Of a DNA stretch of 64,000 nucleotides, positions 59,589 through 63,717 are shown one piece after another (position 1 is the first letter of the stretch; each line of letters opens with the position of its first letter). The DNA comes from Fulvimarina manganoxydans. Lineage in GTDB: Bacteria > Pseudomonadota > Alphaproteobacteria > Rhizobiales > Rhizobiaceae. The stretch covers positions 62,001 to 126,000 of the forward strand of contig NZ_FWXR01000013.1 of assembly GCF_900176465.1 (NCBI RefSeq). Reading direction: 5' to 3'. A program made the position numbers and the translations under genes. Under the pieces are notes generated by a model that saw nothing but the letters and a program-made list of their open reading frames with translations, made no database searches and was not told the DNA's origin.

Positions 59589-59681
59589 GCGGCGCGGCCA
59601 AGGATCGCTTCGCAAGCGGCACACGAATCGCTTATGGAGACGCCCACAGCGCCGAACGCCCACAGCCTGGAAAGAGCCCTC

Positions 59682-60704
59682 ATGTCCACCACCGGTCTTC
59701 CCTTCGACGACATTCGCGACCTGGTCTCCCGGATGCCGGGCCCCGACGGGCGGGCCGTCCATGACAAGCGCCATCGCGAGGGCGATCTCACCAAGCCGGA
59801 CGGCTCTCTCGGCCGGCTCGAGGATCTGTCGGAATGGGTGGCCGCATGGCAAGGCCGCAAGCCTGCCATCACGCGCCCGCTCGTCGCCGTTTTCGCCGGC
59901 ACCCACGGCGTGACCAAGCGGGGCGTCTCGCCTTTCCCCTCCGAGGTCACCCAGCAGATGGTGGCGAATTTCGCGGCCGGCGGTGCGGCGATCAATCAGA
60001 TCTGCGCGACATACGATCTGGGGCTGAAGGTCTACGATCTCGCTCTCGACTATCCAACGGCCGATATCAGCGAGGATGCGGCGATGGACGAGCGCACCTG
60101 CGCGGCGACCATGGCCTTCGGCATGGAGGTTCTGGCCGGCGAGCCCGATCTCCTCTGCCTCGGCGAGATGGGCATTGGTAACACCACTATCGGTGCCGCT
60201 GTCTTTGCCGGCCTTTTCGGCGGGACCGGCGCCGACTGGGTGGGGCCTGGAACCGGCCATGACGCCAAGGGCGTGGCGCTGAAGGCTCAGGTCGTCGACG
60301 AAGCGTTGACCCTTCATGGCAGCCATCTGAAGGATCCGCTCGAAGTCTTGCGCCGGCTGGGTGGCCGGGAGATCGCCGCCATGGCCGGCGCGATCCTGGC
60401 AGGGCGCATGCAGCGGGTGCCGGTCATCATCGATGGCTATGTCGCGACGGCCGCCGCGGCGGTTCTCTTCGCCATGGATCCGCGCGCGCTCGATCACTGC
60501 CTGTTTGGCCATGTCTCGGCCGAGCCGGGCCATATCCGCGCCCTCGAACATATGGGCAAAGTGCCGCTTCTGGCGCTTGGCATGCGGCTCGGCGAGGGAA
60601 CGGGTGCGGCGCTCGCGGCCGGGATCGTCAAGGCAGCCGTCTCCTGCCATACGGGCATGGCGACCTTCGCGGAAGCCGCCGTCTCCCAGCGCGCTCCAGA
60701 CTGA
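59682..60704 (+). CDS. cobT: Nicotinate-nucleotide--dimethylbenzimidazole phosphoribosyltransferase
   Basis: Forms alpha-ribazole phosphate, the lower ligand precursor of cobalamin. The 340-residue protein has KPDGSLGRLEDLSEWVAAW near residue 35, FAGTHGVTKRGVSPFPSEVTQQM near 70, GEMGIGNTTIGAAV near 160 and the C-terminal catalytic Glu in GMRLGEGTGAALA near 306. ATG 59682 follows GGAAAGAG; ATG 59634 in the same frame has no ribosome site. Not to be confused with the cobaltochelatase subunit also called CobT. Confidence 0.94.
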   Translation: MSTTGLPFDDIRDLVSRMPGPDGRAVHDKRHREGDLTKPDGSLGRLEDLSEWVAAWQGRKPAITRPLVAVFAGTHGVTKRGVSPFPSEVTQQMVANFAAGGAAINQICATYDLGLKVYDLALDYPTADISEDAAMDERTCAATMAFGMEVLAGEPDLLCLGEMGIGNTTIGAAVFAGLFGGTGADWVGPGTGHDAKGVALKAQVVDEALTLHGSHLKDPLEVLRRLGGREIAAMAGAILAGRMQRVPVIIDGYVATAAAAVLFAMDPRALDHCLFGHVSAEPGHIRALEHMGKVPLLALGMRLGEGTGAALAAGIVKAAVSCHTGMATFAEAAVSQRAPD

Positions 60705-61009: not shown

Positions 61010-62947
61010 CTAAGCGACCTTCCGCTTCGTTGCGGGAACCTTCGGGGCGGCGTGAGCGGCTCGCCGCTCGGCGTGGGTTTCACGCTGCCAAGTGCGAATG
61101 AAGGTCACGACATCAGCGGACGGCATCGGCTTGGCGAAGAGATAGCCCTGCCCATGGGTGCAGCCTGCGGCTCGCGTGGTGGCGAGATCGGCTTCGCTCT
61201 CGATTCCTTCCGCCACGATCAGGGCGCCGAGATCGCGGCCGAGATTGCAGATGGCCCTGACGATCGCCCGGGAATTTCCCGGTTTGGTCATGGCCGAGAC
61301 GAAGGACTTGTCGATCTTGATCTTCTCGAAGGTATGGTCACGCAGATAGCCCATCGACGCATAGCCGGTTCCGAAATCGTCGAGCGCGACAGCCACACCC
61401 ATGGCCTGGAATTCGTTGACGATCTTCTCGGAGTGTACATTGCGCACGAGAACGCTTTCGGTGATTTCGAGCGTCAGGCGCGCCGGATCGATTTCATGGG
61501 TTTCGAGAAGCTGGCCGACCTGGCTCACAAGCATGTCGTCGCCGAGCTGAAGCGCGGACACATTCACCGTCACGCCGATCGACTCGGGCCAATGGCGCAG
61601 ATTGGCCAGCGCCTCGCGCAGAACGAAGCGGCCGATCGGAATGATATCGCCGCTGGCTTCGGCAAGCGCGATGAAATTGTCGGGCCGGATCGGTCCGAAC
61701 TGCGGATGGGTCCATCGCAAAAGGCTCTCGAAATAGGCGATGGAGCCGGTCGACAGATCGATGATCGGCTGGAAGGCCACATGCAGCTGTTCGTCCTCGA
61801 TCGCATAGGCGAGATCGCGCTGGAGGCGCTTTTGCATGGCTGCGTCCTTGAGGAACTCTTCCGTCGCGAAGGCGATCTGCGCGCGGCCCTCGGACTTGGC
61901 CGAATACATGGCGACATCGGCATCGACCAGAAGCTCGTCGATCTGCCGCTCGCTCTGGGACTTCGCGCTGGCGATGCCGATGGAGAGCGAGGCCGTCGCG
62001 CGATCGGGATGATAGAGGCATCGGTCCCGAAACAGCGTCTCGATCGCCTGACAGCGTTCGAGAACGCGCCGGTCGGCGTCCTCCCCCAGCGCGATCAAGG
62101 CGAATTCGTCGCCGCCGATCCGGATCGCATATTCCTGCGGGCCGAGGACCCTGCGCATGCAGTTCGCGATCAGACGCAGGACCGCATCGCCCGCCGAATG
62201 GCCATGATTGTCGTTGATCTCCTTGAACCTGTCGACATCGATCATGGCGACGGCGATCGCCTCGTCGGACAGGCCGGTTTCAATCAATTCCTTGAGTGCG
62301 GTCCGGTTCGGCAGTCCCGTCAGGGCGTCCGTCGCCGCGCGTCGTGTCAGGCGGCGCCGATATTTGAGCAGGAACACCATCATGATGAGGCCGAGCACGC
62401 CCAGGGCGTAGGTCAGGAGCTCGATATGGGCGAGCGACCGGGTCAGCCGCTGGCGCTGTTCCTCCACGACATCGCCCTGCTTGACGTTGGCAATGGTCGC
62501 CGCGCGCCCGAAACTGCTGGCCAGATGCTCGGCAAGCGCGGCGGCTTCGGCCCGGTCCTGCGGATTGGGCGACAGGGTCGCCGCCTCGATCGCCGCCAGC
62601 CCCGTCTGAAGCTTGGCCTTAGCGGCCTTGGCCGGTGCGAAATCGTCGCTTCCGATTTCTGTGGGCAAGGTCGTCAGACGCGTCTTGATGATCGCGATCT
62701 CGCTCCTGATCCGTGAGTCACCGAAGCTGTCGTCCACCAGAACGTCGCGCAGACGCATCAGCTCGATCTGCGCGCGGTTGAAGTCGAAGGCCACGTCATA
62801 GGACGAGACTTCGATCAGATCATGCTGATAGCGCTGGACGAGGACGAGATTGACCGTGGCTTCCGTGGCGATGATCCCGGATGTCAGCAGGATCAAAGCC
62901 AGAAAGGGATCTCGGATCAGCCTGGAAAACCGACGGGACTGCATCAC
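61010..62947 (-). CDS. Periplasmic-sensing GGDEF/EAL protein
   Basis: Bifunctional-type cyclic-di-GMP protein of 645 residues. Helix 1 (about 14-34) and helix 2 (about 174-192) enclose a periplasmic helical sensor of about 135 residues. The GGDEF domain (DALTGLPNR near 208, GGDEF intact in IRIGGDEFAL near 283) and EAL domain (motif as ESL in FESLLRW near 410, [27 protein letters not shown] all intact) could both be active. It starts in a 4 bp overlap with the upstream periplasmic protein gene, so the periplasmic protein is a likely ligand or modulator of the sensor. The Lys/Arg-rich C-terminus extends about 25 residues past EAL. Confidence 0.9.
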   Translation of the reverse strand: MMQSRRFSRLIRDPFLALILLTSGIIATEATVNLVLVQRYQHDLIEVSSYDVAFDFNRAQIELMRLRDVLVDDSFGDSRIRSEIAIIKTRLTTLPTEIGSDDFAPAKAAKAKLQTGLAAIEAATLSPNPQDRAEAAALAEHLASSFGRAATIANVKQGDVVEEQRQRLTRSLAHIELLTYALGVLGLIMMVFLLKYRRRLTRRAATDALTGLPNRTALKELIETGLSDEAIAVAMIDVDRFKEINDNHGHSAGDAVLRLIANCMRRVLGPQEYAIRIGGDEFALIALGEDADRRVLERCQAIETLFRDRCLYHPDRATASLSIGIASAKSQSERQIDELLVDADVAMYSAKSEGRAQIAFATEEFLKDAAMQKRLQRDLAYAIEDEQLHVAFQPIIDLSTGSIAYFESLLRWTHPQFGPIRPDNFIALAEASGDIIPIGRFVLREALANLRHWPESIGVTVNVSALQLGDDMLVSQVGQLLETHEIDPARLTLEITESVLVRNVHSEKIVNEFQAMGVAVALDDFGTGYASMGYLRDHTFEKIKIDKSFVSAMTKPGNSRAIVRAICNLGRDLGALIVAEGIESEADLATTRAAGCTHGQGYLFAKPMPSADVVTFIRTWQRETHAERRAAHAAPKVPATKRKVA

Positions 62948-63453
62948 GCAACTTCAATTTCGACGAGTTGCCAGACGCAGCGCGCATAAGCGGCCTGGAT
63001 CTGCAAGTCGGCGCGTTCGGAGAAGGGAAAGATGACGAAGACCGGTCCCTTGTTGTCGAGGGTCAGGAACGCATCGTTCTCCTTGATCGCGAGAATGCCG
63101 TTGCTCTCCCGAAAGAACTGGGTGGAAACGGCGGCGGCATAGTCATTGAGGGCGATCAGCGTGCAGTCCAGATCGTCACCATCCCCTCGGCCGAGGACTG
63201 CATCCAGATCGGGGCCCTCGAAGCTCGTCGGCTCGGGATGCCATGGCGTGGTGGTAACGATTCGGCGCTGGGGCAGGCGAGCGAGATCGGCCTGTCGAAA
63301 GGTTCGGATGCCGGGTCCGGGCCCTCGGATCGTCAGGGTCATCGGATCTGGATGCGGTTGCGCCTGCGCCATGCGGGCGATACCGACGCTCGGCAGGAGG
63401 CTTCCGGCGAGAAGCCCCATCACGGCGCGGCGGTTCATCATGGCAAGGCGCAT
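62944..63453 (-). CDS. Exported molybdopterin-oxidoreductase-fold protein, partner of GGDEF/EAL protein
   Basis: A 169-residue exported protein with an N-terminal signal of NRRAVMG followed by a hydrophobic stretch ending in ARMAQAQ (Tat-like but not a strict twin-arginine motif). The mature part resembles the core of periplasmic molybdopterin-binding oxidoreductase-like domains, with FEGPDLDAVLGRG near 80, LIALNDYAAAVSTQFF near 98 and GPVFVIFPFSERADL near 134. The conserved cysteine ligand of sulphite-oxidase folds is not evident, so cofactor binding is doubtful. AGAGGAG lies 9 nt before ATG 63453. It overlaps the GGDEF/EAL start by 4 bp. Confidence 0.65.
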   Translation of the reverse strand: MRLAMMNRRAVMGLLAGSLLPSVGIARMAQAQPHPDPMTLTIRGPGPGIRTFRQADLARLPQRRIVTTTPWHPEPTSFEGPDLDAVLGRGDGDDLDCTLIALNDYAAAVSTQFFRESNGILAIKENDAFLTLDNKGPVFVIFPFSERADLQIQAAYARCVWQLVEIEVA

Positions 63454-63717
63454 AATCGGTGCTCCTCTGTTCGACTGCATGCGTTATTTCTAAGAACCCG
63501 CGATTAAGAATCTGCAAAAGCGAAGAACACGATCGTCCAAACGTCGCCTTTGTTGCCTCACCATGGCAAAATACAGGGCAAGACTGATGCGAAATGCTCG
63601 AATTCGATAGAGTCAGGTCATCTTGGCAATCACTTTACCCGAGTTAAAGGATTTTCACCTTTGGGGAAGTGAAGTGCTACTGGAAGATGATTGTCGACGG
63701 ATGCGCTGTCAGCCTGT

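Follow-up and report, generated by a model that had tools for sequence, protein, structure and literature searches.

The small exported protein and the GGDEF/EAL receptor encoded side by side in Fulvimarina manganoxydans very probably form a pair of the PruR-DcpA type, i.e. a divergent copy of a pterin switch that has been described before. Both genes are located on the minus strand of the window, the stretch of 64,000 nucleotides of contig NZ_FWXR01000013.1 analysed here. A preliminary description of this DNA had regarded the pairing as uncharacterised; it is already described as PruR-DcpA (PMC13259868), and the supposed new pairing is thus placed in a described family. Membership of the small protein in the PruR family, its fold and pocket residues, the linkage of both genes and the intact catalytic motifs of the receptor were observed in the window.

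In Agrobacterium tumefaciens, pruR lies immediately upstream of dcpA, and the periplasmic PruR prefers tetrahydromonapterin; its interaction with the periplasmic part of DcpA leads to a phosphodiesterase bias and less biofilm, and PruA is needed to supply the tetrahydropterin (PMC13259868, which cites Feirer 2015 and Greenwich 2024 as primary papers for the pair). DcpA and PruA are also recounted in PMC6771610. According to PMC13259868, PruR-type systems account for over 5500 unique sequences in the Proteobacteria, with GGDEF/EAL proteins or histidine kinases as partners and up to four systems per genome.

Organisation of the gene pair

The pruR-type gene (62944..63453, minus strand) starts with an ATG at 63453, ends with the stop codon TGA at 62946..62944 and encodes a putative exported pterin-binding protein of 169 aa; translation could alternatively start from the in-frame ATG at 63480 or from Met codons within the gene. 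The dcpA-like gene (61010..62947, minus strand) encodes 645 aa from a start GTG at 62947 to a stop codon that ends at 61010. The sequence confirmed the positions of both open reading frames and their overlap of 4 bases (GTGA, 62944..62947, minus strand) as given in the preliminary description. The minus-strand junction reads GTGATG, i.e. the GTG start of dcpA results in the 4-base overlap and the next ATG in a 1-base overlap. This arrangement is no fixed feature of the pair, because among the 49 PruR-GGDEF/EAL pairs of the family the 4-base form is possible in merely 15; a 1-base overlap is possible in 4 and neither form in 33. The next gene downstream of dcpA is a convergent cobT (59634..60704; Pfam DBI_PRT), and a gene with a DEAD/H-associated domain (Pfam) ends about 260 bases upstream of pruR; pruR and dcpA therefore represent a separate two-gene unit. 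Consensus scans for promoters and terminators around the pair yielded counts no higher than in shuffles.

Assignment of the small protein to the PruR family

The small protein matched 0 families in Pfam and NCBIfam. A phmmer search against the sequences of the PDB retrieved 7kos_A (E 3e-20), 7rkb_A (1.1e-17), 7kp2_A (9.4e-15) and 7kom_A (1.8e-10), which are the PruR proteins of Agrobacterium, Klebsiella, V. cholerae and V. vulnificus, respectively, and represent the 4 distinct PruR sequences in the PDB; the window protein shares 27-36% identity with these solved PruRs. At the level of sequence, the value of 3e-20 for 7kos_A indicates a similarity beyond chance. A profile of alignment A3, which consists of 49 PruRs including the window protein itself and 48 from the named loci (the 80 best of 586 confirmed ones), matched 7kos_A at E 4.1e-57. 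Of the 49 PruRs in A3 (48 of them from the best 80 of 586), 42 matched PF00174 (Oxidored_molyb); the window protein did not and is hence a divergent member. A scan of genome contigs with the single window PruR as query detected no relative. In a search of the genome with PF00174, contigs C25 and C29 yielded further genes of the SUOX family, the window gene not being among the matches. A gene on C29 (G000:C29:88623-89137) was matched as two pieces that overlap; two stop codons interrupt one of them, and the gene is possibly a frameshifted member of the SUOX family.

An AlphaFold2 model of the window PruR calculated with 49 sequences reached a mean pLDDT of 86.4, the signal region being poor. 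In the VIA comparison of this model the top five PDB entries were all PruR proteins (Z 19.6-21.4, rmsd 1.9-2.2 over 132-133 residues). In sequence as in fold, the PruR entries rank ahead of sulfite oxidases and their relatives. The oxidoreductase fold proposed in the preliminary description proved to be right; it is visible through PDB sequences and the predicted structure and not through Pfam or NCBIfam. In A. tumefaciens PruR, residues N102, Y104 and W160 are assigned to pterin binding (PMC13259868). Our alignments revealed that they are kept in the window protein as N103, Y105 and W161, and that Y105 and W161 do not vary among the 49 PruRs of A3 (48 from the best 80 of 586). Sequence and model together identify the small protein as a putative PruR-type periplasmic pterin-binding protein with the predicted SUOX-type fold. 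In a related subgroup of PruRs (L036, L049 and L011) the pterin-site Asn is replaced by Asp (ALDSY vs ALNDY), a replacement for which a change of specificity is considered possible in PMC13259868.

The DcpA-like receptor

Hydropathy analysis of the receptor revealed two hydrophobic stretches (residues about 10-37 and 171-196) with about 130 residues between them, in agreement with the earlier proposal of a periplasmic sensor between two helices. The model of residues 1-205 (mean pLDDT 93.3) is almost all helical and membrane-anchored, the periplasmic helical sensor comprising about residues 38-170; compared with the PDB, the sensor model gave no match at E 0.001 or better. Pfam assigned a GGDEF domain to residues 204-356 (1e-35) and an EAL domain to residues 377-607 (3.4e-66). 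The GGDEF motif is intact at residues 278-282, and the EAL domain contains ESLLR, NVS, EITES, DDFGTG, KID, EGIE and QGY, which we take to be the EAL signature residues. Domains and motifs thus bear out the previous statement that both the cyclase and the phosphodiesterase site are predicted to be intact. The motif RxxD, presumably responsible for product inhibition, is missing and GPQE is found at its place, as located by the spacing that we assume for this motif; its lack was read from the window receptor alone.

The segment FDFNRAQIE of the sensor (F54..E62; 62762..62788, minus strand) represents an FX7E motif as the counterpart of WX7E in the periplasmic domains of DcpA proteins. In alignment A4, comprising 29 receptors, i.e. 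the window protein and 28 of the 42 named GGDEF/EAL partners (loci from the best 80 of 586), E62 is invariant. As the literal W of WX7E is replaced by F54, we designate the receptor DcpA-like rather than DcpA. In PMC13259868, WX7E is assigned to 'the vast majority' of DcpA periplasmic domains, hence not to all of them. Gene linkage, domain order and the aligned sensor group the receptor with the DcpA partners, and by these sequence features it is predicted to work like them.

Partners of PruR across genomes

In the 199 genomes of the family that were searched, 82 contained PruR matches; 106 loci were read from 107 matches, one at a contig edge in G039 being left out. A GGDEF/EAL protein (49 loci) or a histidine kinase (52 loci) is the downstream neighbour of PruR in 101 of the 106. 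A script identified the 49 GGDEF/EAL proteins and 31 kinases, Pfam assigned 20 more kinases and one (L086) was recognised by eye. The five loci outside this partner count (L097, L103, L104, L107 and L110) belong to the weak end of the list, with 39-63 bits. The named loci (the 80 best of 586 confirmed ones) comprise 42 in which the partner is a GGDEF/EAL protein, 33 with a kinase as judged by motif, 3 with no partner and 2 that end too soon, so that a GGDEF/EAL or kinase partner is found in 75 of the 80. The refuting case named in the preliminary description, a small gene that usually occurs without the receptor, did not arise: one of the two kinds of partner stands beside it in 101 of the 106 loci of the family and in 75 of the named ones (the best 80 of 586). 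About half of these partners, however, are kinases and not c-di-GMP receptors (52 of 106 in the family; 33 of 80 among the named loci, the best of 586).

Other output types were considered and rejected. By the first motif script, 25 partners were neither GGDEF proteins nor kinases; 22 of them were scanned, and 21 contained a histidine-kinase ATPase domain (Pfam HATPase_c). One of these 21 (L084) had been counted before, and the member without the domain is taken to be L110. L031 and L036 turned out to be GGDEF/EAL proteins once the correct frames were read, and L103 has no partner. Since the odd partners resolved to histidine kinases or GGDEF/EAL proteins, no new output type was seen. In the genome of F. 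manganoxydans itself, a search with the alignment of the kinase partners led to 33 matches with ordinary kinases, none of which spans the sensor part.

Pteridine reductase and variation of the sensor motif

A PruA-type query was picked from a relative by the motifs TGX3RXG and YX3K, and matches were counted at E 1e-30 or better. Such matches were found in 49 of the 61 genomes searched; in the genomes counted as having a PruA-type reductase they mostly show 46-65% identity (range 35-100%; G015 has just a 35% match). The 61 include three genomes of the genus, the window genome (G000; 98.2% complete, 54 contigs) and two congeners (G022 and G124), and the search detected no PruA-type reductase in any of them. 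In the window genome the top hit among 32 is 29% identical to the query (E 2.1e-21), and none of its 36 PF13561 matches has TGX3RXG in a short-chain dehydrogenase frame. Across this whole genome, the TGX3RXG pattern gave 24 matches vs 38 for the backward control; the one that was opened (L204) was not a dehydrogenase by eye. The FolM model had no match above the cut-off in the window genome, where a pterin-dependent aromatic hydroxylase was also not found. Of the 82 PruR-bearing genomes of the family, 55 have a PruA-type match and 27 have none. We infer that something other than a PruA-type reductase would supply the pterin of the window pair.

At the W position of WX7E, the family GGDEF/EAL partners have W in 22, F in 11, Y in 11 and L in 1 case, with a gap in 4 (n=49); the corresponding numbers for the named GGDEF/EAL partners are W 27, F 12 and Y 3 (n=42; loci from the best 80 of 586). 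F or Y consequently replaces W in 22 of 49 family receptors and in 15 of 42 named ones (loci from the best 80 of 586). Kinase partners kept W in 31 of 31 aligned family rows, 9 of these from PruA-less genomes, vs just 23 of 33 among the named loci (the best 80 of 586), and the motif therefore varies for other reasons too. Aureimonas contributes three of the four best PruR matches and 7 of the 80 named loci (the best 80 of 586), six with F and one (L229) with W; both Jiella loci among these best 80 of 586 have Y at this position. In four PruR-GGDEF/EAL pairs (L092, L100, L106 and L108) the aligned sensor shows a gap where WX7E has its W, and these pairs form a branch of their own.

The genome is PruA-less at 17 of the 22 loci whose receptor has F or Y and at 4 of the 22 whose receptor has W. 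The underlying table leaves out the kinase partners and those 5 of the 49 GGDEF/EAL loci that have none of the residues W, F and Y at this column, and some genomes are represented in it by two loci. On a tree, the alignment for which retained the motif column, we counted only three changes per trait, and the median p for three independent pairs was 1; the window receptor is part of a clade of 12 F/Y loci, 11 of them from PruA-less genomes. Shared ancestry accounts equally well for the association of F/Y receptors with PruA-less genomes. With three changes per trait and the median p of 1 for the three independent pairs, we do not claim that loss of PruA is tied to the replacement of W by F or Y.

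A reading that overlaps with the PruR-DcpA assignment, and that we consider unlikely, is that the pair descends from PruR-DcpA but, as a consequence of the lack of PruA in the lineage, now responds to another ligand or acts independently of any ligand. The lack of a PruA-type reductase in all three genomes of the genus and in 27 of 82 PruR-bearing family genomes speaks for it, as does the enrichment of F/Y receptors in PruA-less genomes (17 of 22 loci against 4 of 22), but the tree with its three changes per trait lends this no independent support and the pocket residues of PruR are kept in the window. Moreover, V. cholerae has two PruR-DcpA pairs and is described as having no PruA, its PruR is depicted with neopterin bound in a figure legend, and the question of the ligand source is raised for this organism too (PMC13259868). 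It is similarly doubtful, and again overlapping with the main assignment, that in a lineage comprising Aureimonas- and Jiella-like bacteria PruR-DcpA would have come to detect pterins obtained from hosts or neighbours and not reduced by the cell itself, or a different pterin, with the loss of PruA and the change from W to F or Y marking this shift. Independently of these proposals, the lineage and the 27 of 82 PruR-bearing family genomes that keep the sensor pair with no PruA-type match offer comparative material for the question which pterin PruR sees.

Proposed mechanism and related systems

On the assignment as a PruR-DcpA-type pair, PruR would be exported and would bind a reduced pterin in a truncated pocket of the sulfite-oxidase fold. 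The pterin-loaded PruR may then dock on the helical sensor that the DcpA-like receptor exposes to the periplasm and bias the receptor between cyclase and phosphodiesterase activity, which would set c-di-GMP and attachment. Pterin binding, periplasmic docking and control of c-di-GMP are here transferred by homology from the A. tumefaciens system and are thus predicted for the window pair. The previous proposal of a ligand-binding exported protein in control of the receptor finds its counterpart in the mechanism published for the family (PMC13259868) and by analogy probably applies; its alternative of an enzyme-like redox reporter was not sustained. Any redox information would, by the same analogy, be the oxidation state of the pterin.

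Like PruR-DcpA of A. tumefaciens (PDB 7KOS/7KOU), the window locus consists of two genes, for an exported SUOX-fold protein and, downstream, a GGDEF/EAL protein with a periplasmic sensor, and the N, Y and W of the pterin site are kept. The systems differ in that the PruRs are 34-36% identical, FX7E replaces WX7E and the window genome has no PruA-type match. The V. cholerae system (PDB 7KP2) is the same pair and is likewise described as lacking a PruA homologue in PMC13259868. In contrast to the window pair it is gammaproteobacterial, and its PruR is 30-32% identical, a comparison that covers the PruR side only. PruR-DTB systems share the same PruR and the same type of periplasmic sensor, but their output is a histidine kinase instead of GGDEF/EAL. 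Periplasmic proteins also gate membrane-bound c-di-GMP enzymes in YfiR-YfiN and NspS-MbaA, with other proteins and ligands than PruR, and the window pair would resemble these systems in the gating principle.

Cysteines and signal sequence of the small protein

The small protein has a length of 169 aa including an N-terminal secretion signal (by inspection), which fits the approximately 170 aa of PruRs. At its N-terminus, inspection revealed a twin-arginine-like signal, MMNRRAVMGLLAGSLL (window 63361..63453). The only cysteines are C97 and C159, residues 1-96 being free of Cys; the alignments did not place the exact equivalent of the molybdenum-ligating Cys, which in the SUOX fold we take to reside in the segment before the FEG motif. 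A redox-active disulfide was considered and rejected, since C97 occurs in the window protein alone among the rows of alignment A2, and C159 occurs in six other rows and is never paired.

It is very improbable that the small protein resembles MsrP/YedY or a sulfite dehydrogenase in being the subunit of an oxidoreductase with molybdenum cofactor and signals the redox chemistry of the periplasm to the receptor: sulfite oxidases, sulfite dehydrogenases and the entries 1xdq/1xdy, which we take to be YedY, do share the fold family with the window model (VIA, Z 8.0-14.6) and the RR signal resembles Tat signals on inspection, but the PruR structures match better (Z 19.6-21.4), and within 169 aa the two cysteines offer none before the FEG motif and include a C97 unique in A2. 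PMC13259868 further describes the PruR family as having Trp instead of the molybdenum-ligating Cys and a pocket that is probably unable to accommodate the cofactor and binds a small pterin.

As a minor observation on the signal regions, an RR pair precedes the hydrophobic stretch, as in Tat signals, in the window PruR and in L230, L232, L239, L240, L245, L246 and L251 (e.g. NRRAVMGLL). By a crude count, RR is present in the signal region of 35 of the 80 named PruRs (the best 80 of 586 confirmed).
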